Source: Oscillospiraceae bacterium (GTDB lineage Bacteria; Bacillota; Clostridia; UBA1212; UBA1255). Taken from it: a stretch of 64,000 nt of DNA. The notes beneath the pieces were generated by a model. That model did not search any database, was not told the origin of the DNA, and saw nothing but the letters and a program-made list of their open reading frames with translations. Made by a program: the position numbers and the translations under genes. Position 1 is the stretch's first letter; each line of letters starts with the position of its first letter. This document shows positions 21,487-52,130 of the stretch, in pieces. The stretch lies in assembly GCA_015069185.1 (NCBI GenBank), contig SVJB01000010.1, positions 1 through 64,000 on the forward strand. The letters run 5' to 3'.

Positions 21487-21597
21487 ATGACCCCACTTTA
21501 CGTTGGTATTGATGTAAGTAGTAAATCCAATGTTGTTTATCTTATGCTCCCTAACGGAGATAAAATTTGCAACTTCACTTTTAATATGGATTATTAA
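21487..21597 (+). pseudogene. IS110-family transposase, N-terminal fragment
   Basis: Thirty-six codons beginning MTPLYVGIDVSSKSNVVYLM, matching the start of the IS110 RuvC-like (DEDD) domain, where the Asp of GIDVS is the first catalytic acid. A GAAAGAAGGTG ribosome site precedes the ATG. The frame stops after CNFTFNMDY at the deletion junction. Full-length relatives are roughly 300-450 residues, so this is a non-functional remnant. Confidence 0.75.
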
Positions 21598-24500
21598 TGG
21601 TAAGATTTGTGCTAACCTCAAACTCAATACCATCATATATCAGAATTATAGTTTCAGCTTTAATCTCTCCGGCAGGTTCTTTCGCTTCAGAATTAGACAA
21701 AACACCTATCTTTTGTTCATTACCTCCATTACCCTTCCACGTATATGTAACACTGAACTTTTCTTCTTCGTTACTAAACGTCAAGTTTGCTTCTGAAGCA
21801 TATCCAAATCCACTCATCGTTATGGTAACACTTGGTTGAGTATATTCATGACTTTCAGAACACCAATCTGAGTTTATAGTACATTTAAAATATACCTCGG
21901 CTGAACTACCATCTGGACTTATCTGAGGAGATTCACCATCAGTATGTCCTTTTCCATTACCCTCTTTATCAACAGACATACTTCCACTTGGATCAATCTT
22001 TGTAATTTTTACAGATGGTGTAGTGGATTTAACAGTATACCTTGGCATAGCAACTATTACAGCATTATCTGCACCTTTATACTCAACCGTCTTGTTTATG
22101 TCTATTATAGAAAAACTAAATTTAGTAGGTGTATATGTTCCTGCATATAAAAGCGTAAATGATTTATCTTGTACATACACTTTTCCGCTTTCATTAGCAA
22201 CAAGTTCGATATTAAATTCATCAAGAGGAATACCATTGCTTGTATAACCACCATGTTGAGCTGAGTTTCTATCATACTTATATGTAAGTGTAATTTTATT
22301 ATTAGGAATATTCAATTTATTATTTTCAAAGTCATAGATTTGAACTTCAATTCTCATATCATGATCTTTGGTTATTTCATGAGCCTGCATAAAAGTACCT
22401 TCAAGCACATTATCTTTTTGGCCAACAAAATGTATGCTTATTGATTCAATTACTTTAGTTGTATTGTCTTCTCCGCTAACATCAAACAATATTGGACTAT
22501 TTTTATCACACCAATTTCCACCTTCATCATATACATCCCAAATGCTTACCGACTCAATTTTCCAGTAACCATCTTGTGTACCCTTATCTGTATTGGGAAT
22601 TCTATAACTAAACGTAGAAACGGGCACTGTCTCTCCTTCACTTTCAAAATTATCAGTTTTTACCAAAACACCATCAACAATATAACGGTCATTTGTTTTT
22701 AAATTCAGTATAACAGCAGAAGTTGATTTTTCAGCAGTCGATGCATATGCAAGCTGAATATTTAACTTCGCATCATTATTTGGTGCATATTGTTCTTTTA
22801 CTGGCTCAAATCCATAATACTTTGGTGCTTTTGGTGACCTAATTATAAACCTTGGTGACTCAGTTGCTATTGAAATAATGTTCTCACCAACAGTTACATT
22901 TGCGAAAACAAATATACCCGCACCAACATCAATTGCATTAAACTCACCCTCATAATATTCTGTAGCAGAGTTCCATATAATTTCACATGTTTTTTTAACT
23001 AGACTAGAAGTGTTGAGTCTATATGTCAATGTTACAGTATTATTAGTACTCAATCCAGTCATAGCAACACCTGTATCATCGTAAATCCTAACCTTCATTT
23101 TCAAAGGCAGCGCTTCATCTGCCATTTCAGAAGGTAAAGTGAAGTCATTCAAACTATCAGTAAACACTCTCGCTGTTATGCCCAAACTTACTGATATGTA
23201 CTTTCTTAAATTTTCCGCAAGTTCTACATACTTACCATCTAGAATCAAATACTGCAATTCATAGTCTCCAGATGTAAGGAATGTTGCAGTTCCTGTCCAA
23301 ATGCCAGCAACTGAATTATATACAAAACTCACTGATGCAGTTGTACCGTCTTTTTTAATGAATCTACCAGACACGGTTTTAGGTAATTTTTTTTCATCGC
23401 TTGAAGCAAACTTTATTGATACAGAGGTGGAAACAGAACGCTCTGCAGTCAAAGCTGCTGCATTATTAGTTTCACTCGCGGTCCACGTAACATTGCTTAT
23501 TGTAAATCCATGTACAACCACCTGCGGCCTTTGTTCTAAATCATATTCAACTCCATCTAGTTGTACACTTCTTAATATATACTTTCCAGGAGACATAAAT
23601 GTATAGTCTGCAATCCAAACCCCATCATTATTGGGGCAAGTAAAGTTTGTAATAACAGGTTCTCGTGTACCCTGAGCTGCATTTATAGATCGAATGAAAA
23701 AAGCTGTTACTTTACTAGGCTGTGCGCCATTTATGTACACGGTCACTTTTGTTGTCATTGGCTCTGTAGCAGTATCATAATCAAATTCTTTAACAGAAGT
23801 ATCTGCAGATACTACAACTTCTTTATCTGCGAGTTTCTCATTCGTAATTGGATATAAGGAAACACTTGTACCAAATTGAATATTAAATTGGCCCTGTATA
23901 TCCGAAGCAGCAAGAACATCATCATTTGTTAGCTTTGTACCATCAAGATACATAATTATGGTTATTCGTTTAGCAACATTTCTTTCAAGATCTGTAATCG
24001 CAGATAAGACTCTTCCATCATAGTCCATTCCCAAATCAATACTCTCAGAAGGATCTAAGACCAAAGGAACAATAACTTTTCCATTATCAGCATAATAATG
24101 TTCAGTGTCCATAATTGCAGCGGCTAGCAAGTTACCACCATCATCTACAAAAGCAACATTCATTGCAGCCAATAACTTCAAGCTTTTCGCTTGATCTTCC
24201 GGTGAATCTACATAATAAACATAGCAACTTCCACTTCCCTGTGTTGTACTATTTACTGATAATCCTGCACTCTTATCCCAAACACGATTCTCACCTTCGT
24301 ATCCAATCACCGTTTCAACTTCTATCATTTTTGGAATTGGTGTATTACTGCCTATTTCCTCTGTAACATCACGATGTGATCCCGAAACATACCATTTTTT
24401 TTCTTCTGATATGTAATACACTTCCAATGTATTATTTTCACTACTGCCATCCTCCAGGGTTTTTTCAAGAGTTATAGTATACAGATCTACTACAGTAGTA

Positions 24501-26059
24501 CCATCTTTGGCAACGGCTGTAGCTCTAACATTTTTTGTTTCGGTTAATATGTTGCCTTGTAATGTCAAATAACTGCCAGAAGCATTTGTTCTTACCCATA
24601 AATCAATAGCTACTCCAAATGTATCTTTTGCAACTTCAACGCCTTTTCCACCATTATTTATTCCACCTTCAGCAGGACTATCCGTTGCATATTTGATATC
24701 GACGGAAAAGTGTGACGGAAGACTTGCATCAGTTGTAATCAATGCATATATTGTACCATCCATAGTCATTCCCAATCTTTTACCTGTTGCTTGTACTTTT
24801 AATCCCTTACCACCATTATACTCAGAACCAACATTCATGTTTGAACCCACGCGTTCTTCAAAACGTTTAAGTATTCCATTAGTTATTACTGCATAACATG
24901 TTTTATTGTTATACGAAAGCGCATCTGATGCGCCAATACTATTTATTTCTTTTTTTTCACTACTTCCTTTAACTTGAACAGTACATTTTCCTATATTAAT
25001 AAAATTTTCAATAATTGCCGGTAATCCAGAATCCACCCATTTAATTGTATCAAGCTTAACAATCTCTTTGATTTTATTCAAATCCGTCAATACTTGGTTG
25101 TAGTCTTTCTTAAATTGCTCAAATTGTTTTATTTTGATTTTATTTTTGTTTAACTGTGAATCAGACACAGACATCAAAGACTCAGCTGTATATATTGTAT
25201 ATGCACTTGTATCCCCTCCGTTAAGTACATACAATTGAAGATTAGCACTTAAAACAATCGCTTCTAATTCCTGCTCCATTGCAAGCACAAACTCTGCATA
25301 CATGTTACAAAAATCACTTACCACAGTTTCGTCCATAGTAGGATTCGTTAACGACTCAGAATCTTCCTGAGAAGCATTCATCCTTGCAGTCATATATGTT
25401 CCCATTATTGAAGCAAGTGATGTCATATATGTACTATTTTGTGTAATACTCAAATATGTATTTGCAGCACGAGCATTTGCAGATTCCGCATCTGTTTGGG
25501 TTTCATATAATCCTATAGCATATTCACTAGCTTCGCCCATTTTAGTAGAGGTAATTGCACGTACTCCTAGTTTATTCGAAACCTCAAATCGGCTAGATAA
25601 TTCAACCCATGTGGCATAAGCAAAACTACTATTCAACCTTTCAACACGACCATCAGCCGTATATTCTGCACCATATAGTGGACTATTAGTCAAATCGGAT
25701 TTATTTAACAAAGCAGGACGTAAAATAAGATTATCTAATCCGTACACAGGATCTGACAAATTAATTAAGTTACCCCAAGTAATATTCTTTTTACTAAGGT
25801 CTTTATTACTATCTCCCACTTGAGAGGTGGCCGGCTCATTCTTTCCTGTAGCCAACGCTATCTCCAAGTTACCATTTGCAGCCACTGAGGTAGTAACTCC
25901 TGATACCTCAGGATTCTGAGATAATGCCAGCCAAGCAAATGAAACCATTGTCATCATAACAGTTGACAATACCAAAAGGATTGTGACAGTAATAACACGT
26001 TCCTTAAGTCCAACTAATGCTTTTGTATATTCAGTTATATTTTTCTTCGTTTCATTCAT
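21581..26059 (-). CDS. Large SipW-cognate/TasA-like fibre protein with Ig-like repeats
   Basis: Start at the ATG at 26059, which overlaps the preceding stop (TAATG) and has GAGGAG; 1492 residues. The N-terminus is a SipW-cognate-type signal (helix, then SFAWLALSQNPEVSG). Residues ~1-640 are clearly paralogous to the protein at 39656-41749 (WGNL, YGLD, DGRV and a C-terminal YLDGTKLTNDDV segment). About 850 extra residues hold repeated Ig-like beta-modules of roughly 100 residues (WIADYTFMSPGKYILRSVQLDG and WTGTATFLTSGDYELQYLI are aligned repeats). It is secreted, probably structural. It is the last gene of the long operon and its stop lies at the IS110 junction, so the natural C-terminus may have been lost. 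Confidence 0.65.
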   Translation of the reverse strand: MNETKKNITEYTKALVGLKERVITVTILLVLSTVMMTMVSFAWLALSQNPEVSGVTTSVAANGNLEIALATGKNEPATSQVGDSNKDLSKKNITWGNLINLSDPVYGLDNLILRPALLNKSDLTNSPLYGAEYTADGRVERLNSSFAYATWVELSSRFEVSNKLGVRAITSTKMGEASEYAIGLYETQTDAESANARAANTYLSITQNSTYMTSLASIMGTYMTARMNASQEDSESLTNPTMDETVVSDFCNMYAEFVLAMEQELEAIVLSANLQLYVLNGGDTSAYTIYTAESLMSVSDSQLNKNKIKIKQFEQFKKDYNQVLTDLNKIKEIVKLDTIKWVDSGLPAIIENFINIGKCTVQVKGSSEKKEINSIGASDALSYNNKTCYAVITNGILKRFEERVGSNMNVGSEYNGGKGLKVQATGKRLGMTMDGTIYALITTDASLPSHFSVDIKYATDSPAEGGINNGGKGVEVAKDTFGVAIDLWVRTNASGSYLTLQGNILTETKNVRATAVAKDGTTVVDLYTITLEKTLEDGSSENNTLEVYYISEEKKWYVSGSHRDVTEEIGSNTPIPKMIEVETVIGYEGENRVWDKSAGLSVNSTTQGSGSCYVYYVDSPEDQAKSLKLLAAMNVAFVDDGGNLLAAAIMDTEHYYADNGKVIVPLVLDPSESIDLGMDYDGRVLSAITDLERNVAKRITIIMYLDGTKLTNDDVLAASDIQGQFNIQFGTSVSLYPITNEKLADKEVVVSADTSVKEFDYDTATEPMTTKVTVYINGAQPSKVTAFFIRSINAAQGTREPVITNFTCPNNDGVWIADYTFMSPGKYILRSVQLDGVEYDLEQRPQVVVHGFTISNVTWTASETNNAAALTAERSVSTSVSIKFASSDEKKLPKTVSGRFIKKDGTTASVSFVYNSVAGIWTGTATFLTSGDYELQYLILDGKYVELAENLRKYISVSLGITARVFTDSLNDFTLPSEMADEALPLKMKVRIYDDTGVAMTGLSTNNTVTLTYRLNTSSLVKKTCEIIWNSATEYYEGEFNAIDVGAGIFVFANVTVGENIISIATESPRFIIRSPKAPKYYGFEPVKEQYAPNNDAKLNIQLAYASTAEKSTSAVILNLKTNDRYIVDGVLVKTDNFESEGETVPVSTFSYRIPNTDKGTQDGYWKIESVSIWDVYDEGGNWCDKNSPILFDVSGEDNTTKVIESISIHFVGQKDNVLEGTFMQAHEITKDHDMRIEVQIYDFENNKLNIPNNKITLTYKYDRNSAQHGGYTSNGIPLDEFNIELVANESGKVYVQDKSFTLLYAGTYTPTKFSFSIIDINKTVEYKGADNAVIVAMPRYTVKSTTPSVKITKIDPSGSMSVDKEGNGKGHTDGESPQISPDGSSAEVYFKCTINSDWCSESHEYTQPSVTITMSGFGYASEANLTFSNEEEKFSVTYTWKGNGGNEQKIGVLSNSEAKEPAGEIKAETIILIYDGIEFEVSTNLTINNPY

Positions 26060-26721
26060 TACAGGATTGCTCCTCTCTTCTGTGCATGTACCTCGGATAT
26101 ATCTATCCATAATTTGTCAGTCATAATATTGTTATCATATATAGTCAGCGTAGCTGTTAATTCACTTTGTATACCGCCCAGTAATAACCATCTTAAGTCG
26201 TCATCACTACCAGCAGAATCATAAAAACAGTATACCCAAAAACCATTATAATCGTCAATACCCAGCTGCTTATAATAATCAATACACTCATTATAAAACG
26301 GAGAATTAACACTTAAATAATGAGCCTGTGCCGTATATAGTTTTGACGATGTTTGAGAAGTCTTCAGAGTCATTTCTATAGAGCCTGATGAATCAGTACC
26401 GATATCACTGGTATCAGGAACAATCACCCTTATTTTTAAATAAATATCATCTATTGCCGGGACATATCCGTCTGCATCACTACTATTACTCAAAATAAAA
26501 TCTACACTACTACTTTCAGAATTCCATTTGATATCTGTTGTATTCGCACCGGATTCATCGTATATATAATAGTTACTTATCTTTTGTACAGTATACATAG
26601 CATTCTCGCTAAAGCTGGATCTGTATCTGCCGAGAGTTACATGACCAGGTAACAATACACATATACTAATCACCAGCACAAATGTAAATCTGATAACATT
26701 TTTTATAGCTTTATTAGTCAT
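26059..26721 (-). CDS. Small exported protein with SipW-cognate-type N-terminus
   Basis: 220 residues, ATG at 26721 with AAAGGAGAGG. An N-terminal hydrophobic helix is followed by TLGRYRSSFSENAMYTV, as in SipW-cognate leaders, then a beta-rich domain of ~180 residues (VDFILSNSSDADGYVPAIDD, YLKIRVIVPDTSD) that resembles the TasA/CalY beta-sandwich. There is no C-terminal anchor. Position between the beta-helix protein and the largest fibre protein, with overlapping stop/start to the latter, suggests a minor subunit or fibre starter. Function inferred from context only. Confidence 0.55.
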   Translation of the reverse strand: MTNKAIKNVIRFTFVLVISICVLLPGHVTLGRYRSSFSENAMYTVQKISNYYIYDESGANTTDIKWNSESSSVDFILSNSSDADGYVPAIDDIYLKIRVIVPDTSDIGTDSSGSIEMTLKTSQTSSKLYTAQAHYLSVNSPFYNECIDYYKQLGIDDYNGFWVYCFYDSAGSDDDLRWLLLGGIQSELTATLTIYDNNIMTDKLWIDISEVHAQKRGAIL

Positions 26722-26740
26722 ATAACCTCTCCTTTCTGTA

Positions 26741-28687
26741 TTATTCAGTAGTTTTCTCTGTAACTACATACATACCGGTATTATCTTCCGATACAGTCAT
26801 CTCCGAGTCAGTATGCAAGTAAGCATCCACATTAGTATTATAGGAACCACTCTTGACAACTATATCTGCATTTGAAGCAGTGGACATATACTTACGCACT
26901 GCTAATGCATTCTCACTAGTCACAACTGTTTTCTCACCTGATACTGTCACAAGGATTGTAGTGTCATAGTTTGCTTCAACATATATGCCATCACCGGTAT
27001 CAGTCCATCCACTGTTTGAATAAGCAGGTTCATTAGCAACTCCTGTACCTGTCACAACACAATCTACAATATCAACAATGCCGCCCTTAACAACAACACC
27101 TGTCATGCCGGTAAGCGTACTATCCTCTACCAACATGTAGCTATTCTGTAATTGAGGATGATAGATTGCAGTATAATAGCCACTAACATTGCTGTTCTTC
27201 ACAGTTATATTTGTACCCCAACTGCTTCCATTTGCGAGTATTCCTGCATATCCATTTCCTGAAATAACGCTATTTTCAATAACAATATTTGTTACTTCGT
27301 CAGAATCATCTGCGTTTCCATAAACATATACACCAATCTCACCGGCTGATATATTACTATCAGTAATACGGATATTAGAATCTACACCCACATTATTCTT
27401 ATTATCCTGTATCTTAACACCATCTACAACATCAGAAATAATAACATCTTCCAAAATAACGGTAGCACCACTAGAATATACAGCTATATCAGTTGTTGCA
27501 GTATTGCCATTAGCCGTCGTATACTCGCTACCCTTGAGAGTGCCATTCTGAATCAATAAAACAGAGCCAACATCAGCCACAATAATATTATCTTTGACTG
27601 TGGATGTCAGAGTGTGTCCGTTCAAATCGATCATTGTGCTGGTTCCATTAATCAAAGCCACAGCTTCAGATAAAACAATATCATTATCTAAAGTTATCAG
27701 ATTAACATTTGAACTATTAAGAGCTTCCATAAATTGTTCTGTTGTATTTACGGGAACTGCATCATCTTTACTGTTGTATCCTGTTATTGTAATCTTTGCA
27801 GTATAAGTATCTGTAGCACCATTATCAGCATTGATACCTAGCTGTGTATCACGTTCCATGTTCGTAATAATTTCATCATACGAACACAAATATGCCCATA
27901 CACCATATCCATCATCATTTACATCGACAGGATAATAACCTGATTCTGTTTTTTCTGTAACATCAATCGTGCCTTCAAATCCGTCATTACTGGATATCTG
28001 ATATAGAAATTCACTAACAGTAGTGTTTCCATCAATCCGATCAAGACTACCATTAATAAAAGTGGTTCTTGTTTCATCAAACTCATATTCAATAGGTCTG
28101 ATATACTCCTTGATATCTACAATGGATACACCATTTTCACCGGTACTCATCGTACCAAGAACATAATATCCCAACACATCATATACCCACTGCCAATGTA
28201 AATCAGGTGTTATTCTGCTTTGAGGAAATAGTGTATATGTGTAGCCGTAGCCAGAGCTAACATATACTCTGTTCATTTTTTCATTATTACGCACAGCAGA
28301 TACATCTGTATAAAAATAAAATCTTTTCTGCATTTCCTCAGACATTTGTGTCTTAGACACATTAACTCCCGCAGCAACAAGTCCGTCACCATCATTATTC
28401 AGAATCAATGAGATAGCACCATCATCGCCCGGAGCCGCACTAATTGCTTGGCTTTCTAAAACTACATCACCGTTAAAATTCCATTTTTCAGTTGTAAAAG
28501 ACAGGCCTCCCGTTTGAACAACATTTGTCTGCCAAGCTATTGTAAGTGAAAATATAAGAACAATTGTAAGCACTACTGTTATAATACCCAGCATTGCTCT
28601 CATAAAAATATTCTTCTTAAGGCTTCTCAAAACAGAACCTAGTCCATGTCGAGAATTACAATCATTCTGTTTATTCTCGTTTCTCAC
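26741..28687 (-). CDS. Exported protein: TasA-like N-domain plus parallel beta-helix
   Basis: A 648-residue protein. The GTG start at 28687 overlaps the SipW gene's end by 17 bases and has AGAGGAG upstream. The N-terminus has a hydrophobic helix (~28-50) ending TIAWQTNVVQTGG. A TasA-like region follows (SLILNNDGDGLVAAGVNVS). Residues ~320-590 form a right-handed beta-helix: TMIDLNGHTLTS, VLLIQNGTLKGS and then short repeats of the kind NIVIENSVISGNG and NITVKNSNVSGYY. The end (SGSYNTNVDAYL) resembles SGQYDADVTDYL in the 2019-residue dockerin protein. Probably a surface adhesin or glycan-binding component. Confidence 0.65.
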   Translation of the reverse strand: MRNENKQNDCNSRHGLGSVLRSLKKNIFMRAMLGIITVVLTIVLIFSLTIAWQTNVVQTGGLSFTTEKWNFNGDVVLESQAISAAPGDDGAISLILNNDGDGLVAAGVNVSKTQMSEEMQKRFYFYTDVSAVRNNEKMNRVYVSSGYGYTYTLFPQSRITPDLHWQWVYDVLGYYVLGTMSTGENGVSIVDIKEYIRPIEYEFDETRTTFINGSLDRIDGNTTVSEFLYQISSNDGFEGTIDVTEKTESGYYPVDVNDDGYGVWAYLCSYDEIITNMERDTQLGINADNGATDTYTAKITITGYNSKDDAVPVNTTEQFMEALNSSNVNLITLDNDIVLSEAVALINGTSTMIDLNGHTLTSTVKDNIIVADVGSVLLIQNGTLKGSEYTTANGNTATTDIAVYSSGATVILEDVIISDVVDGVKIQDNKNNVGVDSNIRITDSNISAGEIGVYVYGNADDSDEVTNIVIENSVISGNGYAGILANGSSWGTNITVKNSNVSGYYTAIYHPQLQNSYMLVEDSTLTGMTGVVVKGGIVDIVDCVVTGTGVANEPAYSNSGWTDTGDGIYVEANYDTTILVTVSGEKTVVTSENALAVRKYMSTASNADIVVKSGSYNTNVDAYLHTDSEMTVSEDNTGMYVVTEKTTE

Positions 28688-29390
28688 TTAGATTCATCTC
28701 CTCTAATATTTCTTTGCGAAGGCGTTCGATCATCTCTTCTTCTGTTTCCTCATGTTTGCCTTCTTCGGTATCAGCATTATCTTTCTTTTCATCTGCAGCC
28801 AGCTCATCCATAGCCGCCATTACATCTTTTCGCATTTTACTAACGCAACTCGACAATATAATCCCGGCAATTATTAAACATGGAATAGCAATAGCCGCAA
28901 CAAAACTGTATTTATTGGTGAAAAAAGCAATAAAACTACAAAATCCACTGTCACCAGAGCACCAAATAACTGTACCAATATAATTATTTTCTTTAACATA
29001 AGTTGAATCTATAGAGAGATTCGCGTCGCCTTTTGTTTGAAGTATCACATCGTTATTACTAGTAAATACATCAACTACTCTGTGCGTTATTATCTTTCCC
29101 TGTGTTTCAGAAGATTGTGATTTAAATGTAACTACATCACCTTTCTTAACATCCGTAATATCCTGCTGTTTCGTGAGAGTCAGAGAGCCTACCGGCATCG
29201 TAGGCTCCATACTGCCGGTAACTATTCTAAAGAAACTATAACCACCAACAGATACATACCCTTTAGTCAGTATCTGTACCGTAACAAATAAGCATACACA
29301 AACAGCTATAGTAAGCAAGCCTGTAGCACACCAACCAATAATACGATATATAAGTTTCTTTCGTCTGCTCTTAGCAGCTGTATCAGTCAT
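28671..29390 (-). CDS. sipW: SipW-type signal peptidase I (S26B), copy 1
   Basis: A 239-residue membrane protease with an N-terminal transmembrane helix (~20-42) and a second one (~165-190). Seen: GSMEPTMPVGSL with catalytic Ser60, and ITHRVV with His103. The Ser-His rather than Ser-Lys dyad marks the ER-type/SipW class. The C-terminal ~45 residues are charged and cytoplasmic. Known: B. subtilis SipW processes TasA and TapA in the matrix operon. Here it lies among several SipW-cognate-type substrates and next to the beta-helix protein, so it likely processes this half of the locus. A second copy is at 37679-38494. Confidence 0.85.
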   Translation of the reverse strand: MTDTAAKSRRKKLIYRIIGWCATGLLTIAVCVCLFVTVQILTKGYVSVGGYSFFRIVTGSMEPTMPVGSLTLTKQQDITDVKKGDVVTFKSQSSETQGKIITHRVVDVFTSNNDVILQTKGDANLSIDSTYVKENNYIGTVIWCSGDSGFCSFIAFFTNKYSFVAAIAIPCLIIAGIILSSCVSKMRKDVMAAMDELAADEKKDNADTEEGKHEETEEEMIERLRKEILEEMNLSEKRE

Positions 29391-29406
29391 TAACTATTAC
29401 TCCATT

Positions 29407-31083: not shown

Positions 31084-31086
31084 TTA

Positions 31087-32883: not shown

Positions 32884-32897
32884 TTTCTACATTCCTC

Positions 32898-34226: not shown

Positions 34227-34240
34227 CGAATCAATTCCCT

Positions 34241-36043: not shown

Positions 36044-36067
36044 TTTCTGACATCTCCTCAAATGTTA

Positions 36068-38494: not shown

Positions 38495-38558
38495 TATTTT
38501 CCTCCTCCGCCGTATTATCACGGCATATTTTATATATAAAACAAAATTGTTTCCTAAT

Positions 38559-39557: not shown

Positions 39558-39600
39558 GTTTGTCTCCTTCCTCGCTTGGGTAATATCATCTTTGGTGGTA

Positions 39601-39633
39601 TACCACACTCACAGAGTGGCTGTGAGTGTGGTA
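39601..39633 (-). other. Long hairpin in the operon, no T run
   Basis: TACCACACTCACAG/CTGTGAGTGTGGTA, a 14-bp perfect stem with a 5-base loop, 23 bases after the stop of the gene at 39656. On the minus strand it is followed by TACCACC, so it lacks the T tract of a terminator. Possible processing or stabilising element that adjusts subunit ratios. Confidence 0.7.
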
Positions 39634-41749: not shown

Positions 41750-41824
41750 TTTTGAATTTCTCCTTTCAAAAAATAAAAGTGTTTTGCGTTTCACGCGACA
41801 TGGTCACGCAAGTCCGCCGACTCT

Positions 41825-41871
41825 ATGTAAACATTTCTTCTAGCGAGCGCCGCTTGAATCATGTAAACATT
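41825..41871. repeat. Duplicated ATGTAAACATT motif
   Basis: Two copies (41825-41835 and 41861-41871) 36 bases apart in the 120-base gap between genes, separated by a GC-rich segment with a small AGCG-type hairpin. Further toward 41790 are repeated CACGC elements. It could be a second regulatory input within the operon; function not known. Confidence 0.4.
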
Positions 41872-42907: not shown

Positions 42908-42926
42908 TTATTATCTTCTGTACTCC

Positions 42927-44402
42927 TTATACCTGTTCTCTTGCCAGAGAATCCAGTATCATATCATCCTCGTTTACTTCAATACCGGTCATAGTGCCTG
43001 ACGTACATCTCACACCACAAGCAAACAACCATCTTAATGTATCATAATTGTCTGCCCGTCCACCAAATACAGTAAATCCTTGTCTGATAAGTTTTGTTAT
43101 AGCATTAGCTGTATCCTGCTGCATATATAGTTCCGGATCAATACGCACTGCAGTAATTCCCATCTCAATTAATCTTTCCGATGGTATACTATCAGGATGA
43201 TATCCATCCAGCACTAATCTAATGCCATTTCTGGTGTATCTCCTTATTACTTCCATCTGTGCTTTTGTAGATGTAAGCAGTACACTCTCAGGAATTGTCA
43301 GCATAATTGCATGTTTATCAATAGGTTGGTCAATGAAAAGCTGATTAAACTTCTGGAGCTGTGTCTCTAGACCATAGAATTCCGGAAGCATATTAAGCAT
43401 TATTCCATCAACCTTTAAATTACAATTGTTTATACGAAGAACTGCATCAGTAGCCTCATACAAGAAGTACCAGGATAAATCCTCTGTAAGATTTGTTCTT
43501 TGGAATAATTCTTGTAAATCTTGCATACCTTCTGTACTTTCCGGTTCTCCGATAATACCTCCAAACCAAGGAGTAGCTTCATACATTACTATACTGCCCT
43601 GATCGTCACACATCATTGGTCTGTATTTGAGTCCCATCATTCTACTTGGTCTCTTATCTACCAGACCTATTGTCTTTGGAAGTGTACGAGTATAGCTTAT
43701 GTATTTGTTATATATTGCCTGGCATTCTTCTCTTGCCTCTTTGAGTACCTCAATTAATTCCGGAGACCATTTAGTTCCTGAAGCAAGAATAAGTTCTTCC
43801 ATTGCAAGTTCAAATGGTTCCTCTGACTTAGTCTCTGCAGCAATACGATCTAATTCCTTTGCTATACCAACTATCTGGGCAATAGGACTTATATCGCTAC
43901 CCAGGCGTCCTTCAGGATATCCGGATCCATCCCATCTTTCCATGTGTTGTTCACATGATTCTCGTATCATGAGCCACGGAATATTATTCGTAGGCAATTC
44001 TTCAAGTTCGCCTTTACGCTTACGGGCAGCTTTGGCACTTCTTTCTTGAAGAGTAGCAACAAGCAATCTTCCGTCTGTTGTATATTTACGATATACTGCT
44101 CTCTCTTCTCCGGTAAAGTCTCTTTGTAATATCTGATACTCCGGAGGCACCAAAGCTTTACCTAACTGATGGTACATACCACATTTGTATGCAAGATCAG
44201 AATACTGACCTCTCATACGATTTTCTCCATCCTTGGTATTCATACCAAATTTAAGCTTGCACGCTTGTACAAACAGAACCTGGGTATAAGCAGCCACTCT
44301 TACAGATTGTTGCCTTATGATAGGCGATAATCCTCTAAAAGCCTCATCCCACGTTTCATATTCTTTTCTTTTCCAGTTCTGTTCTTTGGTAAAAATACCC
44401 AT
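42927..44402 (-). CDS. Degenerate HD-GYP plus EAL-like protein
   Basis: Start at the second ATG (44402), with AGGAG seven bases upstream; 491 residues. Residues ~25-200 follow the HD-GYP layout (CGMYHQLGKALVPPE, then ERWDGSGYPEGRLGSDISP). The metal-binding HD is changed to HQ and other ligand His residues are absent (YTTDG in place of HxxxG). Residues ~230-480 resemble an EAL domain (LDGYHPDSIPSERLIEMGI then AVRIDPELY, in place of DDFGxGYSS...KIDxxF), with catalytic acids missing. Known: inactive HD-GYP and EAL proteins act as c-di-GMP sensors or scaffolds. Its place between structural genes suggests it controls the system post-translationally; that is inference. Confidence 0.7.
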   Translation of the reverse strand: MGIFTKEQNWKRKEYETWDEAFRGLSPIIRQQSVRVAAYTQVLFVQACKLKFGMNTKDGENRMRGQYSDLAYKCGMYHQLGKALVPPEYQILQRDFTGEERAVYRKYTTDGRLLVATLQERSAKAARKRKGELEELPTNNIPWLMIRESCEQHMERWDGSGYPEGRLGSDISPIAQIVGIAKELDRIAAETKSEEPFELAMEELILASGTKWSPELIEVLKEAREECQAIYNKYISYTRTLPKTIGLVDKRPSRMMGLKYRPMMCDDQGSIVMYEATPWFGGIIGEPESTEGMQDLQELFQRTNLTEDLSWYFLYEATDAVLRINNCNLKVDGIMLNMLPEFYGLETQLQKFNQLFIDQPIDKHAIMLTIPESVLLTSTKAQMEVIRRYTRNGIRLVLDGYHPDSIPSERLIEMGITAVRIDPELYMQQDTANAITKLIRQGFTVFGGRADNYDTLRWLFACGVRCTSGTMTGIEVNEDDMILDSLAREQV

Positions 44403-44426
44403 TTTCATTCTCCTAAGACACTAATC

Positions 44427-44456: not shown

Positions 44457-44467
44457 TTATAATATCA

Positions 44468-46054
44468 TTATCTAACTGTAGTTCTTTTCTTTGAATAAAC
44501 AAGTGAAGCAGTTGCTACAACAAGTACAACTATTGAGAGGATAAGCATTACAGAGCTATCTCCTGTCTCGTTATCATTGAGCTTCAATGCATTTACAGAC
44601 TGTGTTAAAGCTGCTGTGGCATTATTAATCTCTTCTTGTGTAGTAGCATTCTCACGTGTAGCACGTGCATTAGCTAACTCTTCAATCATTTTATTCCATG
44701 ATTCCTCAGTATATTTATCCTTCTCTTTACTCTCTGCTTCTGCAATAATCTTGTCAAGTGCAGTATAGTCAAGAGGCTTAACTACAGGTTTCTTTTCTAA
44801 CGCATCTATGGCATTCTTAAGAGCGATTGCTGCATTAGTAATCTCATCCTGTGTTGTTGCATTGTTTACAAGAGCTTTTGCTGCTGCCAGAGCATCTGCC
44901 ATTGGACCCCATGTCTCTGCAGTATAATCATCCTCTACAAGACCTTCTGTTCTTGCAATCTGATTATTAAGTTCTGTATAGTCAAGAGGTGTCACAACAG
45001 GTTTTTCTACAAGTGCGGCAATTGCATCTTTAAGAGCTTTTGCAGCTGCATCTACTTCCTCTTGTGTCTTCGCATCAGTAAGAGCGCTGCGTGCACTCCC
45101 GAGGGCTACAATCATAGCCGCCCAAGATTCTGTTGTATATTGGTCTTCGTCCTTTGACTCAGCATCTTTAATTTGTGCATTCAACTCATCGTAGTTAAGA
45201 GGTGTCACAACAGGTTTCTTTTCTAACGCATCTATAGCATTTTTAAGAGCTGTTGCTGCATTAGTAATTTCATCCTGTGTTGTTGCATTGTTTACAAGAG
45301 CTTTTGCTGCTGCCAAAGCATCTGCCATTGGACCCCATGTTTCTGCAGTATAATCATCCTCTACAAGACCTTCTGTTCTTGCAATCTGATTATTGAGTTC
45401 TGTATAGTCAAGAGGTATCACAACAGGTTTCTTTTCTAACGCATCTATAGCATTCTTAAGAGCTGTTGCTGCATCAGTAATCTCATCCTGTGTTGTAGCA
45501 TTGCCTAACAAGCTCTCTGCTTTATCTAAAGCATCCTTCACGATCGTCCAAGATTCTGTTGTATATTCATCCTCTACCAGATTAGCAGTCCGTGCAATTT
45601 GTGCTTCGAGTTCTGAATAGTCAATAATATAAAGTGTTATCTTATCATATGAATATTCTGGTATAGACGGTAATCCTGCCTCTGCATCCGGTATCTCGTA
45701 TTCAAATTGTATCACGCACTCGTCGCCAATCTTTGCAGTATTTGCAATTGTGATATTAAGAGTGATAACAAAATCAATTGCTTGAGAACCATGATACATA
45801 AACACACCCGTATTCTCATTGAATGTAACTAAGTAATTATCAGTATCCATCTGAATATCACTTATCATATCCTTGTTAGAACAAGTAAATGTACCATTGA
45901 TACCTGTAATACCTTCATATTTAAATTCTACAGTCACAACCTTACCTGCCTCGGCAGCTGTTCTCTCAGGAACAGCTTGTGCGAAGGCCGGAATAATTGC
46001 ACTAAATGTTAACACTAAGGTAAGCAATAAAAATAATATAGTCTTTGTTTTCAT
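44468..46054 (-). CDS. Membrane-anchored FIVAR-repeat protein with cohesin-like N-domain (copy 2)
   Basis: 528 residues: signal peptide (1-~26, ending AFAQA); N-domain (~30-140: VEFKYEGITGINGTFTCSN, GVFMYHGSQAIDFVITLNI, AKIGDECVIQFEYE); five ~71-residue FIVAR-type repeats (~145-490); and a transmembrane helix with a YSKKRTTVR tail. The N-domain and overall plan match 29407-31083. Repeats 2 and 4 are almost identical. No LPXTG signal. The dockerin protein is encoded just upstream in the operon, so this N-domain is the natural candidate for its partner, but cohesin identity is unproven. AAGGAGG precedes the ATG. Confidence 0.7.
   Translation of the reverse strand: MKTKTILFLLLTLVLTFSAIIPAFAQAVPERTAAEAGKVVTVEFKYEGITGINGTFTCSNKDMISDIQMDTDNYLVTFNENTGVFMYHGSQAIDFVITLNITIANTAKIGDECVIQFEYEIPDAEAGLPSIPEYSYDKITLYIIDYSELEAQIARTANLVEDEYTTESWTIVKDALDKAESLLGNATTQDEITDAATALKNAIDALEKKPVVIPLDYTELNNQIARTEGLVEDDYTAETWGPMADALAAAKALVNNATTQDEITNAATALKNAIDALEKKPVVTPLNYDELNAQIKDAESKDEDQYTTESWAAMIVALGSARSALTDAKTQEEVDAAAKALKDAIAALVEKPVVTPLDYTELNNQIARTEGLVEDDYTAETWGPMADALAAAKALVNNATTQDEITNAAIALKNAIDALEKKPVVKPLDYTALDKIIAEAESKEKDKYTEESWNKMIEELANARATRENATTQEEINNATAALTQSVNALKLNDNETGDSSVMLILSIVVLVVATASLVYSKKRTTVR
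44792..45436 (-). repeat. Near-identical direct repeats within the FIVAR gene
   Basis: About 215 bases beginning at 44792 and at 45218 are nearly identical (offset 426 bases, exactly 142 codons, two repeat units). A third partial match starts at 45430. This indicates recent expansion by recombination, so repeat number may vary between strains or be misassembled. Confidence 0.8.
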
Positions 46055-46070
46055 TTATTTTGCCTCCTTC

Positions 46071-49000
46071 TCACACATTCGGTGTGTCAACCAGTGATGA
46101 TTCATACTCATCCCAGTAAACAAGTTTTCTTGCAACTTTAGTTGCATCACCGATATCGATTCTGCCGTTGTTGTTAATATCAGCTGCAAGCTTCTGGATA
46201 TCAGTGATATCTTTTAATTGAGCAAGACTCTGGTTTATAAGTACTGCGTCACCAGACTCAATACGTCCATTTCCGTTCACGTCACCTACTATAACAATAG
46301 TATATTCAATAGTAGCTTTGAGACCGGCTGCATTAGATGCTGTAGCAATCAGTTTTGTGCCATTGCACACAATTGCATTTGTATTACCATCACCAATAAC
46401 TATCTCAATAGAGTCAGCATATTTTGCATAGAAGGTAAAGAGATCTTTGAGGTCTCCTATCTTTACACCAAGATAATGAGCATCAAGATAAATAATTTTG
46501 TTCTCTGTATCAACTAATGAGCCAACAATCTTATCATGTGTACCAACTTCTGGTGTACCTGTTCCATCAATAAACTCAGGAGCAGTAACGCCAAATATGT
46601 CAATTGAAATGTATACCTTTGTAATATCAAGATCAACTGTCAAGCCATAGCCTCTGATAAGTTCAATAAAGATTTCTTTGCCAATGTTTTCTTTTGATAC
46701 TGTGTATGTGCCATCTGCATTTACAAAGCTTCCAATTAAACGATCATTTCCTGTGATATTAAGCTTGCGAGCAACAGCAGCTACGAGCTTTGCGATTGCA
46801 TCGAAGAGTTTCTCAAGCTCAACGACATCTGCCTCAACAATATCTTTAAGGCCAAGATTTGCTATCATTTCCTCAAAGCTATCATCCTTAGTAATATTCT
46901 TGAGAGCTTTTATAACCTGACTAATTTTGAGATTATTAAATGCTTTCTCAAGTTCTGTAAATGTGTATGTTGTGTAATATGCCTCAATACCTGCAACGAG
47001 ATCAGCTCTTTCCTGAGCACTCAAACCATCAGCAATCATAACAGCAATCATAATTGCATAATCAGGATTTTCAGTGAGATCAACTATAACACTACCGGAA
47101 GCATTCCAATCAAGTACAAAATTCTTATCGTTATTGCTATCAAAACCTTGATTCAAATCTACAGAAACATCAACATCTGTTGTATCATCAAGAGCACCAA
47201 AGATATCAGCAAGAAGCTGTTTATCTTCTTCAGTACCTGTAACGAGAATATTTAACTTATTAGTTTTCTCATTACTTGAATCAATAGAACCTGTGAGATA
47301 ATCACCGTCTTCAACATGTTCGAGTTTGATATTCCATGAACCTGTTGTCATATCATATGAGAGAATAGGTGTATCGCTGTTAATTGCATTCTCAATTGTT
47401 GCAAAATCTGTAATGTCAGCAAGAACTGTATTGATCAGAGCCTCCAGTTCGTTACTATCAACCATTTCTGTAATCTTGTTAATCAGATTCTTGCCTGTGT
47501 CCTCACCTGCATATAGACCAACAAAATCCTCAATAGTAATATCATATACTTTATTGCCATCGATATATAACTTATTAACTGTATAACCATTAAAGATTAA
47601 TTCTGAAACAATATCAACTGCAACTGCCTTAAGATTCGGTAAAGCCTCTGTAGCAAGTAAACCTGCATCAATCTCAACAGTTACATTTCCATCTGAATCC
47701 TTAACAATTGTGTAAATATCATTTATAACCACACCATCATCATTCTGGCTATATCCTGTCTTAAGATAATCAGTTACATCAGCATCATATTGGCCGGATA
47801 CAATTGTTACATTACCCGATATGACTCCGTCTACTCGTCCACACTCACCTGTAGTAAGAGTTGTATCTATTATTGTTAAATTTCCATTAGCAATAATATT
47901 ACCTGATACTCTCTGACCATTTAGGTTAAGCACTGTAGTATTGTTGAATACCAATCTGCTACTTGCATCAATATCGCTGAGAAGAACAACAAGTGAAGTA
48001 CCTGATAGAGTATTAAGTTTGGAAGCTATATCCTTAGTCAAACCAATCTTATTTGTTATGCCCTCTGCATTAATGTCAAAATACAGACCGTTGTATCTAT
48101 TGCCAAGATTCTCAAGAGCAACATTTAACGTAATATCAAGACCTGTATCGTACTCTGCAATCATCTTACCAAGATCACCCATATTGAGCTTATCAATAAT
48201 ATCTGCAATCGCAATATTACCTACTGCTGTTGTTGATTGCTCTTCATATGTAAAGGTAAAGGTCTTATAAGCATCGCATATAGCCTGGAATACTGTCTCA
48301 TAACCTGTAAGATTCAGTTTGTATCCAAGCATATTCAATGTATTCTCAATTGTCTGAGTTGTCACATTGCCTGTAAGCAAGGGCTCAATTATATCCTTTG
48401 CAAAACCTATAGCAATCTCACCGTTCAATGAGTTAATATCTGTGATATCTACATTATCTGTAGCAAGCAGTACAGCAAGATATGCTTCATATGCCTTTTC
48501 AGGTAATGTGAGGCTAATCTTTGTCTGACCATCTTCGCATACAAAGCTGAAGTACGGAGCAAGTTCATCTGCAAGAAGATTTCTTAACTTAACAATCATA
48601 TCAGATGCACTACCTAATGTTATATAGAAATCAACATTGCAGTTATCAGAAGATGAATTGCCAAGTTGCATTGTAGTCTTAACAAGCTGACCACCAAGAG
48701 CATTCAAAACAGCATTGGAAATAACATCGCCATCTAATACGAGATTCTTAATATTTCCATTTGCATCCATTGCACTAATAAGTGTATCAGATCCAAAACC
48801 GCTGTTCATAACAGCGTCAACAACTGCCTGCATTGAGATAGTAAGCACTGATTCATCATCAAGATAAAGAAGTCCTTTACCGTCAAGTCCGATATATGAA
48901 TATCCGGAGTTAACTAAGCCCATAGCAGCTTCCTGCATAGCAGACATCATATTGTTCATGTTATCTGCATTTACCTTTAATACGATTGAATATTTTCCAT

Positions 49001-52000
49001 CTTTCTCAATGAGTGCAAATCTAACTGCACCATTAGTTACGGAGCTATTCAAATCATTTACCATATTAACAAGATTTTCACGTTGAATATTTATTTCTTC
49101 ACGAAATACAGTATATTCTCTATTAACGTTATCAAAGAGTCTGTCGATCTGCTCTAATGTGAATTTGTATCCACTTGTCAGACCTGATTGGCCATCTATA
49201 ATATATTCATAACGTGTTGTTGCATTTCCTGCCGGGAGACTGATTGTCAGATTATTAACATCAATCTCTACAGAAGAAGAACCTTCTATATTTACTGTAT
49301 ATTTAATAGGAGTCCAAATGAATGAGTATGAAGAATCTAACTCTTTTGCAGCCTTACCTACGAAACTATCAAAATAGTTTTCGGTATAGTCAGTATTATA
49401 ATACTTAGTATCAATACCTAACTCTGCAATTTTCTCTTTAATAGCGTTAACAATCTTAGCAATATCTTCTTCATTGATAACATGATTTCTATCAAATGTT
49501 ATAGGATCAATGCTTATTGGTCTGCCACCTTGAACCTGAACACTTGCTGATATATTAACCTTTGTTTGAGCATTGATTATAATAGCTTCTGATTCGAGAT
49601 AAAGCTCACCATATGTATACTGAGAAGCATCTCCACTCATAAGCAGTGCATCAATAAGGTTTCCGAGATCTGCACTCTCAGTATCTATATACTCACTCGG
49701 AGGTGTGAGCGCTTCCTTAACATCCTTCATTGCTTTTTCCAGATTTTGAATCTTTTCAGCATATTCCGGGAAGCCTGCTGCTTCGACTAAAACCTCAAGA
49801 GCAGCTACCTTCTCATCATCTGCAAACATAGCAGTCAAATAACCACTAAGAATATTTATCTCATTTATAATAGCCTCACTATTCTTGTAGTAATATTCTA
49901 AGCCGCCAGTATATTCATTCAAATACGCGGACAACATAGTGTATATTTTAAGTTGGCTGCCATCTAAACAGTTATTGATAATGCTAGTAACAACAGACTT
50001 AAAGTATGCTTTGAGTTCATCACTTTTAGCAGGATCACTATGTAAATCTGTTACATCAATAACACCATTCAAAGCACCTAACTTAGTTTTATCAAGTTGA
50101 GCCATCTGATCAGCATAATTGCCAAGTCTGTCGAGAGCAGCCTTCTGATTTGCTGCATCTTCTGATAAAATGCCGGGCACTTTAAGTATCTCGAGTATCT
50201 CATCCTCTGGTATGTTAGAGAGTACCAGTCGGTAAATAACCTCTACACGGTTATAATCCGCTTCTGTGATTGTAGCAGTAGTGCCATCAAACTTATGAAC
50301 AAAGTTTCCTGAATCAGTTACTACAGTGTATGTATAAGGAACCCAATCAAGACCTGCATAGCTTGAATGATATTTATTGGCAGTAATCTGACCGTCATTT
50401 ACAGTAACAATATTTCCTTTGTTATCAGGATATCTGACACTGATCTGTCTGTCACCAACTACTACCGCATCAGATTTAAGAATTAAATACTGCTTACCGT
50501 TATATTCAAAATAACGATCATTCGCTATATCCTTAAGATTAGATGTAACGTATGACTTTCCTTCGCTTCGAGTAATATTAGTGTTACCTACCACTGTATA
50601 TACAGAACCCTCTGCATAATAGCTGCCATTTACTGAATAGTCGTATGCTTTTGTAGCATCACTGTGTGGCTCCAACATAAGCTTGTAGCCGTATGGTACT
50701 GATGATTCAGCACCCAAATATATTAATGTATAGTACTTAGGAGAATATGTTATAACGTATTCGATATCTTTTGTAATTGTGTCGGGAAGATCTGTTGTAG
50801 ATTGCTCAAATTGGTTAGCAATATACATATCGCCCCATTCATTAATTGAATCTGCAACAATACCACTTGCTGCAACTGCATCCAAAATCTCATCTTTTGT
50901 TGTTCCATCTGCAAGCGTGATTACTGTTGTGTTCTCATCTTTGACAACAAGCTCATTTGAACCTACAACACCACTGGCTGTCTTGATAACAACCTTAACT
51001 GTAACATCCGACATGCTCATGTTGTATGTTAACGTTTTTGAGCTTAAAACCAGTGGATTCTTAATAGTAGAAATTGTGGTCGTGTCGCCCAGCTCTGCTA
51101 CCATAACATCAAGCGCTGCATATGCAACTGAAGTCAAATCATCTCTAAGATATACGGCGTCAGCAATAATCCATGCATCATTTGCTACAGGCTCATTTGT
51201 TGCGCACCAAGTGTTGATAACACTCTTAAAGGCCATCCATTTGGTGTATGAAGCTTGATCAGTTGAATTTAAATATCCGTCAAGTAATTCATTATTGAGT
51301 AAAACATCTGTAGCAATAATACTGAGATTTGTATAAGCATCTTTTATTGTATCTATTACTTTCTGCCTGTTAACTACTACATATTCAACCTTTGAGTCAG
51401 CAGCAGTGTACTCCTCAACAAGTTTAGTTATATAAAAGTTTCCTATATCCTTAATTTGAGCATTAAGAGTATTAACCGCATTTATTGCAGGTTCCTTTAA
51501 TTGCGCTGATGCCCAACCCAAATCGATACCATTAGCCAATTGTTGTAAAACACCCATAGCTGCTTCGATAGTACCCAGCTGTGAACTTGATTCACCTGAA
51601 GCAATAATGCCCATATTAGCAATAGCCTGCTTCAACGCTGCAGGTGCATTTAGTATCGCACTCTGTGTAGCCTCGTCAATCTCAACAGTAACCTCATAAT
51701 CAACCTTTACAGAGAAGGCATCGCCGTCATATGCGTATGTACCTTTGCCGTCTGTAAGAGTTACGTTCTCGGTATTTTCGTTGGCATCAACTACAAATGC
51801 CTTTACAGGGCTCCACTTGTTGCCTGATGCGTCAGTAAAGCTCTTAGCTGTGATTGTCTTTGAGTCCAGATCTACAGAAATGAGATTATCACTATCTGTA
51901 GGCTTATTAAACTCATATGAATCACCGATAAGATAACCGGACTTCAGGATCTGCTCCTCAGCCTCTGTAAGCTCATAGTTCTCAGCTATAATCTTGCCGG

Positions 52001-52130
52001 CAGTCTTACTCTCTGTATCTACATCAGCAGATACGCCTGACCACCATACAGGACCGATTGCAGTAAACAGTATCGCAACTGCAAGCAAGAGAGACCATGA
52101 ACGTCTGAAAATTTTGGAATAGTCACTCAT
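46071..52130 (-). CDS. Giant exported protein with C-terminal dockerin
   Basis: 2019 residues, first gene of the operon; ATG at 52130 with AGGAGG. Signal peptide (~1-35). A very long Asn/Asp/Ile-rich body contains repeated beta-domains and a short beta-helix-like stretch (VLNLNGQRVSGNIIANGNL). The last ~65 residues are a type-I-like dockerin: GDVNGNGRIESGDAVLINQS and ADINNNGRIDIGDATKVARK, two calcium-loop plus helix units with acidic or Asn ligands at positions 1, 3, 5, 9 and 12. Dockerins bind cohesins in multi-protein complexes. No catalytic domain is recognised. Likely a giant surface or matrix component held by the FIVAR proteins (inferred). Confidence 0.8.
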   Translation of the reverse strand: MSDYSKIFRRSWSLLLAVAILFTAIGPVWWSGVSADVDTESKTAGKIIAENYELTEAEEQILKSGYLIGDSYEFNKPTDSDNLISVDLDSKTITAKSFTDASGNKWSPVKAFVVDANENTENVTLTDGKGTYAYDGDAFSVKVDYEVTVEIDEATQSAILNAPAALKQAIANMGIIASGESSSQLGTIEAAMGVLQQLANGIDLGWASAQLKEPAINAVNTLNAQIKDIGNFYITKLVEEYTAADSKVEYVVVNRQKVIDTIKDAYTNLSIIATDVLLNNELLDGYLNSTDQASYTKWMAFKSVINTWCATNEPVANDAWIIADAVYLRDDLTSVAYAALDVMVAELGDTTTISTIKNPLVLSSKTLTYNMSMSDVTVKVVIKTASGVVGSNELVVKDENTTVITLADGTTKDEILDAVAASGIVADSINEWGDMYIANQFEQSTTDLPDTITKDIEYVITYSPKYYTLIYLGAESSVPYGYKLMLEPHSDATKAYDYSVNGSYYAEGSVYTVVGNTNITRSEGKSYVTSNLKDIANDRYFEYNGKQYLILKSDAVVVGDRQISVRYPDNKGNIVTVNDGQITANKYHSSYAGLDWVPYTYTVVTDSGNFVHKFDGTTATITEADYNRVEVIYRLVLSNIPEDEILEILKVPGILSEDAANQKAALDRLGNYADQMAQLDKTKLGALNGVIDVTDLHSDPAKSDELKAYFKSVVTSIINNCLDGSQLKIYTMLSAYLNEYTGGLEYYYKNSEAIINEINILSGYLTAMFADDEKVAALEVLVEAAGFPEYAEKIQNLEKAMKDVKEALTPPSEYIDTESADLGNLIDALLMSGDASQYTYGELYLESEAIIINAQTKVNISASVQVQGGRPISIDPITFDRNHVINEEDIAKIVNAIKEKIAELGIDTKYYNTDYTENYFDSFVGKAAKELDSSYSFIWTPIKYTVNIEGSSSVEIDVNNLTISLPAGNATTRYEYIIDGQSGLTSGYKFTLEQIDRLFDNVNREYTVFREEINIQRENLVNMVNDLNSSVTNGAVRFALIEKDGKYSIVLKVNADNMNNMMSAMQEAAMGLVNSGYSYIGLDGKGLLYLDDESVLTISMQAVVDAVMNSGFGSDTLISAMDANGNIKNLVLDGDVISNAVLNALGGQLVKTTMQLGNSSSDNCNVDFYITLGSASDMIVKLRNLLADELAPYFSFVCEDGQTKISLTLPEKAYEAYLAVLLATDNVDITDINSLNGEIAIGFAKDIIEPLLTGNVTTQTIENTLNMLGYKLNLTGYETVFQAICDAYKTFTFTYEEQSTTAVGNIAIADIIDKLNMGDLGKMIAEYDTGLDITLNVALENLGNRYNGLYFDINAEGITNKIGLTKDIASKLNTLSGTSLVVLLSDIDASSRLVFNNTTVLNLNGQRVSGNIIANGNLTIIDTTLTTGECGRVDGVISGNVTIVSGQYDADVTDYLKTGYSQNDDGVVINDIYTIVKDSDGNVTVEIDAGLLATEALPNLKAVAVDIVSELIFNGYTVNKLYIDGNKVYDITIEDFVGLYAGEDTGKNLINKITEMVDSNELEALINTVLADITDFATIENAINSDTPILSYDMTTGSWNIKLEHVEDGDYLTGSIDSSNEKTNKLNILVTGTEEDKQLLADIFGALDDTTDVDVSVDLNQGFDSNNDKNFVLDWNASGSVIVDLTENPDYAIMIAVMIADGLSAQERADLVAGIEAYYTTYTFTELEKAFNNLKISQVIKALKNITKDDSFEEMIANLGLKDIVEADVVELEKLFDAIAKLVAAVARKLNITGNDRLIGSFVNADGTYTVSKENIGKEIFIELIRGYGLTVDLDITKVYISIDIFGVTAPEFIDGTGTPEVGTHDKIVGSLVDTENKIIYLDAHYLGVKIGDLKDLFTFYAKYADSIEIVIGDGNTNAIVCNGTKLIATASNAAGLKATIEYTIVIVGDVNGNGRIESGDAVLINQSLAQLKDITDIQKLAADINNNGRIDIGDATKVARKLVYWDEYESSLVDTPNV

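Follow-up and report, generated by a model that had tools for sequence, protein, structure and literature searches.

The question raised by this locus is what is built by an operon in which a McrB-like AAA+ NTPase and a McrC-like partner stand among SipW-type signal peptidases and secreted proteins with SipW-type leaders. The operon (genes g1 to g16) lies on a 64,000-nt stretch of an uncultured, gut-type Oscillospiraceae bacterium (contig SVJB01000010.1, positions 1-64,000, assembly GCA_015069185.1), hereafter the window, which is located on contig C52 of the source genome (G000), a 2.1-Mb draft that is 85% complete. It consists of 16 minus-strand open reading frames (ORFs) running from 52130 down to 21581, with intergenic gaps of -56 to +75 bases. 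We consider it probable that the products of the operon form a system for the biogenesis of surface fibres, with a CoCoPALM-type core at its centre. The anatomy of the operon was read directly from the DNA, and from it we infer the motor function and the fibre. Domains were called by Pfam and NCBIfam scans of the operon proteins, and the features are listed below.

g1, 46071..52130, minus strand: secreted protein of 2019 amino acids (aa) with a type I dockerin at the C-terminus (PF00404, E=8e-12 to 9e-10)
g2, 44468..46054, minus strand: signal peptide, cohesin-fold domain, 5 FIVAR repeats and C-terminal membrane helix
g3, 42927..44408, minus strand: cytosolic protein with degenerate HD-GYP and degenerate EAL domains (HD_5 E=6e-13, EAL E=3e-11)
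g4, 41870..42907, minus strand: bitopic protein with cytosolic N-terminus, one membrane helix and TasA-like ectodomain, no SipW cleavage motif
g5, 39656..41794, minus strand: 712-aa TasA-like/SipW-type subunit, leader ...STYAWFTLSTAP
g6, 38559..39608, minus strand: 349-aa TasA-like/SipW-type subunit, leader ...ASYTWFSLSKSP
g7, 37679..38614, minus strand: SipW-type signal peptidase with long charged cytosolic tail, start probably internal (MKGEATTQ...)
g8, 36068..37663, minus strand: McrB-like AAA+ NTPase with N-terminal membrane helix, coiled-coil-like segment and motif NNDD
g9, 34241..36061, minus strand: McrC-like DUF2357 protein with long charged coiled coil (PF09823, 8e-07)
g10, 32898..34226, minus strand: 442-aa TasA-like/SipW-type subunit, profile match to the g6 family
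g11, 31087..32883, minus strand: BspA-type leucine-rich repeat (LRR) surface protein with C-terminal membrane helix (PF13306, 2e-56), accessory
g12, 29407..31083, minus strand: cohesin-fold domain, FIVAR repeats, membrane helix and conserved cytosolic tail
g13, 28671..29390, minus strand: second SipW-type signal peptidase, charged cytosolic tail (TIGR02228, 3e-26)
g14, 26741..28687, minus strand: 648-aa protein with less typical SipW-type leader and weak right-handed beta-helix similarity (pectate-lyase-like match PF20585, E=0.003, below cut-off)
g15, 26059..26721, minus strand: 220-aa fast-evolving secreted protein with less typical SipW-type leader, possible minor subunit
g16, 21581..26110, minus strand: 1509-aa giant TasA-like/SipW-type subunit, leader ...VSFAWLALSQNP, paralogue of g5
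leader hairpin, 52199..52239, minus strand: stable fold upstream of g1, sequence GTTACAGGGTGGGG...CCCAGCCAGAGTAAC

A preliminary description of this DNA had listed 16 tightly packed, co-directional genes, among them a giant dockerin protein, two cohesin-like/FIVAR anchors, about six SipW-cognate or TasA-like subunits, two SipW peptidases, a BspA LRR protein, a degenerate protein of the cyclic di-GMP (c-di-GMP) type, and a McrB-like membrane ATPase with a coiled-coil partner. All of these were recovered: the dockerin in g1, the anchors in g2 and g12 (now refined to predicted membrane-spanning cohesins), the leaders in g5, g6, g10 and g16 and in less typical form in g14 and g15, the peptidases in g7 and g13 by TIGR02228 and NF046067, the LRR protein in g11, the loss of ligands from both the HD and EAL domains of g3, and the AAA domain, membrane helix and DUF2357 in g8 and g9. 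Its reading as a surface fibre or matrix system is also the best one in our analysis, supported by the recurrence of the core across genomes.

A search with g8 led to a genome of another order (G043), where a full-length relative is 70% identical and the gene order matches the operon (g1, a g2/g12-type gene, g3 to g10, g13 and g14). At least 558 g8 relatives were found in a scan of named genomes, and the best 80 of these loci were surveyed; they belong to Oscillospiraceae, Lachnospiraceae and Ruminococcus, and include Ruminococcus albus KH2T6, Ruminococcus flavefaciens YAD2003 and Anaerosporobacter faecicola. The core, namely g4, a SipW peptidase, g8 and g9, recurs in these loci (SipW in 78/80, g9 in 75/80, g4 in 66/80), the missing cases being mostly due to contig-end cuts or masking by opposite-strand ORFs. 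Twenty loci are of the window type, and there, as far as the contig extends, 14 of the 16 genes recur in unchanged order; some apparently missing genes were artefacts of ORF picking, caused by longer opposite-strand ORFs, and were restored by tblastn. Within the 20 sister loci, g14 was found in 16, profile matches to g15 at the same position in 12, orthologs of g16 in most and the LRR gene g11 in 2, and cargo genes turn over from locus to locus. The preliminary description had named occurrence in this genome alone as one observation that would speak against it; what was found is the same neighbourhood, with its order kept, in about 20 other genomes, a recurrence that far exceeds chance.

The association also holds in a class-wide sample of 243 genomes. 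Strong matches to g4 and full-length membrane-anchored g8 had an identical distribution (10 of 243 genomes, nine families; random-draw p ~6e-18, phylogeny ignored), and genomes with only shorter McrB relatives (e.g. G008, G253 and G146) had no g4. Judged by gene content, g4, the SipW peptidases, g8, g9 and the subunits are inherited together across Clostridia.

The best matches of g8 in the PDB were McrB (E=3e-7 to 7e-7), and the McrB model PRK11331 matched at 1.4e-05. Its membrane helix at residues 59-77 is followed by a coiled-coil-like stretch, which had no FtsB/DivIC match in Pfam, with one member of the alignment giving a weak FtsL match (E=0.04). The motif NNDD, found in 90 of 92 g8 homologs, aligns without gaps to Escherichia coli McrB and fits NxD+D, and it can be read as NxxD as well. 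In g9, as in several of its relatives, DUF2357 was above the cut-off, and no nuclease domain, including the PD-(D/E)xK family, was detected in g9 or 7 relatives. For the peptidases, which belong to the SipW (ER) type, TIGR02228 was above the cut-off in both g7 (3e-26) and g13, with NF046067 as best or second model (8e-33 in g7), and the motifs SMSP...THR...GD of g7 and TGSMEP...THR of g13 are present.

Loci of six genomes (L093, L109, L115, L118, L126 and L128), including R. albus and R. flavefaciens, encode g9 and the peptidase as one protein. These fused forms of 973-1026 aa carry DUF2357 first, then the coiled coil and then a complete SipW-type peptidase (GSMEPS, THR, GDAN), which in R. flavefaciens was matched by TIGR02228 of NCBIfam at 1.8e-29. 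A separate SipW gene is kept in 5 of the 6 fusion loci; two of the fusions are in isolates and the others in draft genomes. Such natural fusions speak directly for joint action of the McrC-like protein and the peptidase.

Two further kinds of loci were observed. In G025 and G027 (L032, L035), core relatives stand beside single giants of ~3,400 aa with membrane-type leaders, which are predicted to be a different cargo of the same machine. The window genome has a second McrB/DUF2357 locus (G000:C16, 73.7-81.6 kb, L037/L038), of a type also present in G008, G010, G012, G013, G026 and G028, with the order McrB-like ATPase, DUF2357 protein, second McrB-like ATPase and one or two large membrane proteins; neither SipW nor a TasA-like gene lies near loci of this type.

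We compared the core with the system that Bell et al. (2024, eLife; PMC11090510) named CoCoPALM in two sentences, with its exploration deferred elsewhere. Both have a membrane/coiled-coil McrB-like NTPase, a coiled-coil McrC with DUF2357 and no detectable nuclease, and a linked signal peptidase. The class is marked by NxD (rather than NxxD), usually with D or E after it, and by an FtsB-like membrane and coiled-coil segment fused to the NTPase; NNDD of g8 is compatible with NxD and also with NxxD. The operon core is very probably CoCoPALM as judged from its domains, and the view of the preliminary description that the system was undescribed did not hold. The main text of PMC11090510 does not mention TasA, and TasA-like cargo, g4, an HD-GYP/EAL partner, McrC-SipW fusions and a cohesin-dockerin module are absent from it. 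In the open-licence literature we found no follow-up on CoCoPALM and no description of its cargo, architecture or function. The new elements are the TasA-like cargo, the uncleaved g4, the McrC-SipW fusions, the linked c-di-GMP-type protein and the cohesin-dockerin pair at the head of the operon.

No credible family was found for g4, g5, g6, g10, g15 or g16 in the Pfam and NCBIfam scans, and the subunits were characterised by their leaders and by comparison with each other. The leaders of g5, g6, g10 and g16 end in [A/T]W-x-x-L-S-x-x-P, after which the sequences diverge. Proteins g5 and g16 are 30% identical over 596 aa, and the family profiles of g10 and g6 aligned with 100% probability (hhalign, E=6e-43). 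The ectodomain of g4 matches the C-terminal half of g6 (98.7%); the motif WLEGxDxDC is common to both, and a C-terminus with this motif was found in several subunits. An A-W cleavage motif after the membrane helix was absent in every aligned relative of g4, and this protein is a candidate for the base of the fibre. The AlphaFold2 model of g6 was confident (mean predicted local distance difference test, pLDDT, 90.8; predicted template modelling score, pTM, 0.82). Its best Foldseek match was the 0406 filament of Sulfolobus acidocaldarius (probability 0.89, E 0.0098, low TM-score), with the Pyrobaculum bundling pili lower in the list; the similarity to donor-strand filaments is suggestive and not significant.

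Archaeal bundling pili have been described as TasA-like, and TasA polymerises by donor-strand exchange following cleavage by SipW (PMC9674648). The window operon resembles Bacillus subtilis tapA-sipW-tasA (PMC9674648, PMC10151520) in its SipW-type peptidase, in subunits with SipW-type leaders of the jellyroll/donor-strand type, and in encoding several subunits. Unlike the window operon, the Bacillus locus has no NTPase, McrC, g4, HD/EAL protein or cohesin-dockerin module, and the window subunits are unmatched to TasA by sequence. SipW/BsaA filaments are known from Clostridium perfringens, where the single operon sipW-bsaABCRSD (PMC7395162) likewise combines a SipW-dependent matrix protein that forms filaments with additional secreted proteins; this clostridial locus differs in its two-component regulation, and no McrB/C-type NTPase was reported for it.

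Several observations weigh against a fibre machine. The Foldseek E-values of g6 were not significant (best 0.0098) and the TM-scores were low; the TasA and camelysin models were silent in the Pfam and NCBIfam scans, and no TasA chain was found by profile. In 15 of the 80 loci no recognised TasA-like subunit was present in the fetched flanks, and the McrC-SipW fusion occurs in just 6 of 85 g9 ORFs. The fibre, the secretion and the NTPase activity are here predictions from the genes. To our knowledge, the known SipW/TasA systems assemble without any NTPase, and since they need none, the motor role is a function that we infer.

Another reading is that the NTPase, McrC and SipW control the release of adhesins or matrix proteins that do not polymerise, giving regulated secretion or display without a fibre. 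Such a system would agree with the diversity of the cargo, which ranges from 220 to 1509 aa with LRR, beta-helix and FIVAR proteins among its members, and with the weakness of the structural match to filament subunits. However, the common post-cleavage motif and the WLEGxDxDC C-terminus suit polymerising subunits better, filament proteins are among the structural matches, and characterised SipW substrates polymerise. We regard this explanation as unlikely.

An anti-phage role is improbable. It would make the locus a relative of Type IV restriction, with membrane and surface parts for sensing or blocking phage, and it could draw on the McrB ancestry of g8, on the patchy, horizontally acquired distribution and on a match of g8 to the PADLOC candidate model PDC-M26A (E=1e-44). 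This match was, however, judged to be a domain match to the NTPase only; no nuclease was detected in g9 or its relatives, no defence neighbours were found within the window, and the near-universal link to SipW and the uncleaved TasA-like g4, together with the direct McrC-SipW fusion, does not suit defence.

The cohesin-dockerin part of the operon raises the further possibility of a scaffold resembling the cellulosome, in which g1 and the cohesins g2 and g12 would be central and serve the breakdown of polysaccharides. The modules themselves are real. PDB dockerins were the best matches of the g1 C-terminus, and dockerin-like C-termini are found in sister loci; the g1 ortholog of G097 (locus L049; 2015 aa, 42% identical over 2,013 residues) is directly followed by a 1178-aa cohesin/FIVAR protein. 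For the N-terminal domain of g2 and g12, Ruminococcus cohesins were best in a sequence search of the PDB (E ~0.006), and a nine-sequence model of that of g12 (pLDDT 92.5) had cohesins as its best structural matches (E from 2e-05); the fold was modelled on g12, and g2 is linked to it by alignment. Four dockerins were found in the window genome, and cohesin also occurs outside the operon. At a second cohesin-dockerin locus (G000:C25, 7.5-25.0 kb; L039, L040), giant dockerin proteins of 3293 and 2049 aa precede a 424-aa protein that has both cohesin and cadherin-like domains.

The operon thus shares the cohesin fold and the type I dockerin with the cellulosome (R. flavefaciens ScaE etc.), but it has no catalytic enzymes: Pfam scans found no enzyme domain in g1 and no glycoside hydrolase in the operon. 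Its cohesins stand on FIVAR stalks with a transmembrane end. The C-terminus of g2 has NETGD, a membrane helix and a short basic tail, and sortases are encoded elsewhere in the genome; that of g12-type members, in a further difference from the cellulosome, continues beyond the membrane helix into a conserved cytosolic tail, D-x-TPLVDYDI-x-DD, which points to a cytosolic partner and is possibly a docking peptide for the cytosolic machine. With just four dockerins genome-wide, some core carriers without any dockerin, and the cohesin and dockerin genes being a branch-specific addition, a cellulosome-like role is very improbable; as far as the surveyed loci tell, this part is confined to the window-type branch and the core spreads much further. 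That the McrB/C pair is only a passenger in a surface-protein island, as the turnover of cargo between loci might suggest, is hardly credible and refuted in practice by the conserved order, the exact co-occurrence of g4 and g8, and the McrC-SipW fusions.

The c-di-GMP-type protein g3 has lost catalytic residues in both domains (HD to HQ, H to Y and HH to HM, with EAL metal and lysine positions replaced). At this position Lachnospiraceae have an HD-GYP protein without EAL, its metal ligands intact; Ruminococcus has only a degenerate EAL; and in the window type HD and EAL are fused and both degenerate. One branch has no such protein. The form tracks the g8 tree, though truncated or shadowed ORFs raise the number of 'none' calls. 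The window genome (an 85% complete draft) yielded no GGDEF protein, and such proteins were present in 8 of 14 controls. The number of GGDEF proteins was 8-24 in HD-GYP-type genomes (n=8), 23-47 in EAL-type genomes (n=7), and zero in three members of the g3-less branch and in 12 of 17 window-type genomes. Given the loss of the catalytic residues and the lack of any GGDEF match in the window genome, an enzymatic c-di-GMP function of g3 can almost certainly be dismissed here, and g3 is probably a non-catalytic regulator or scaffold. Going by the intact HD-GYP of the Lachnospiraceae relatives, control by c-di-GMP would be ancestral or, at the least, linked to the system. FimX and LapD are degenerate c-di-GMP receptors, and g3 resembles them as a degenerate EAL protein coupled to a surface-appendage machine; it differs in that sensing of c-di-GMP is unlikely in the window genome, since no GGDEF enzyme was found there.

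For the surface-fibre system we propose the following mechanism. The NTPase g8 would form a ring at the inner membrane face and be stimulated by g9, as McrB is by McrC; g9 would link the ring to SipW, and turnover of nucleoside triphosphate would gate or power SipW cleavage and subunit release. The subunits would then polymerise by donor-strand exchange on a base of g4. In the window branch, the giant dockerin protein g1 would be held by the membrane-bound cohesins g2 and g12, LRR or beta-helix proteins would decorate the surface, and g3 would descend from a c-di-GMP phosphodiesterase, keeping a trace of ancestral control as a regulator or scaffold without catalysis. Support for these steps falls in the order McrC-SipW link, NTPase gating, g4 base, donor-strand polymerisation and cohesin-dockerin outer protein. 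In its strongest form, which we put forward tentatively, the proposal is a new Gram-positive appendage machine, where a membrane-tethered AAA+ ring of McrB ancestry powers or gates the extrusion of TasA-type fibres; the activator of the ring would be a McrC-like protein that is itself attached to the signal peptidase, and some lineages would add a cohesin-dockerin module and a fossil c-di-GMP control protein.

Transcription of the operon as a single unit is plausible from its layout. The overlaps between genes stem from longest-ORF calling and vanish with internal starts, such as MKGEATTQ in g7. No terminator-like sites were found in the intergenic gaps of the operon, those detected being inside genes. 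Promoter-like matches were no commoner than in shuffled sequences and were therefore not used, and for the same reason one promoter is neither shown nor excluded. The 151-nt leader upstream of g1 folds stably (z=-3.0). An Rfam scan of the window and the operon leader matched no family, and the region upstream of g1 in G043 or G097 contains no sequence that evidently corresponds to the leader hairpin; a riboswitch is therefore not claimed.

The operon was likely acquired horizontally by the host lineage. The identity of g8 to its window-type relatives is 64-75% (56-58% for the outlying L064 and L066), that of GlmS to the same genomes is 46-49% where found, and none of the other members of the host family in the sample yielded full-length g8. 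A divergent copy of MurA (52432-53733) is transcribed divergently from the operon; its identity is 56-57% to that of a same-genus genome and does not exceed 42% elsewhere. Since MurA diverges even between members of the genus, it is a poor yardstick for horizontal transfer, and GlmS was used instead. The flank genes at 52-68 kb match the same-genus genome G001 in order, which indicates that the contig is correctly placed; in G001 the contig stops shortly after MurA. A PHROGs search gave no matches and so no support for a prophage origin.

The locus supplies CoCoPALM with testable parts, namely SipW-type cargo, an obligate partner in g4 and a physical link between McrC and SipW, and with a candidate regulator in g3, which is intact or degenerate in step with the presence of diguanylate cyclases. 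TasA-type fibres are thought to assemble spontaneously or with chaperones. If the proposed machine is true, a restriction-type NTPase has been repurposed for building surface fibres, and a motor can drive the assembly of fibres of the TasA type. Gut and rumen Clostridia commonly carry the system, the cultured R. albus and R. flavefaciens among them, so that it bears on adhesion and biofilm there, and cultured carriers, to which Anaerosporobacter faecicola and Lachnospiraceae 28-4 also belong, make the machine directly testable.

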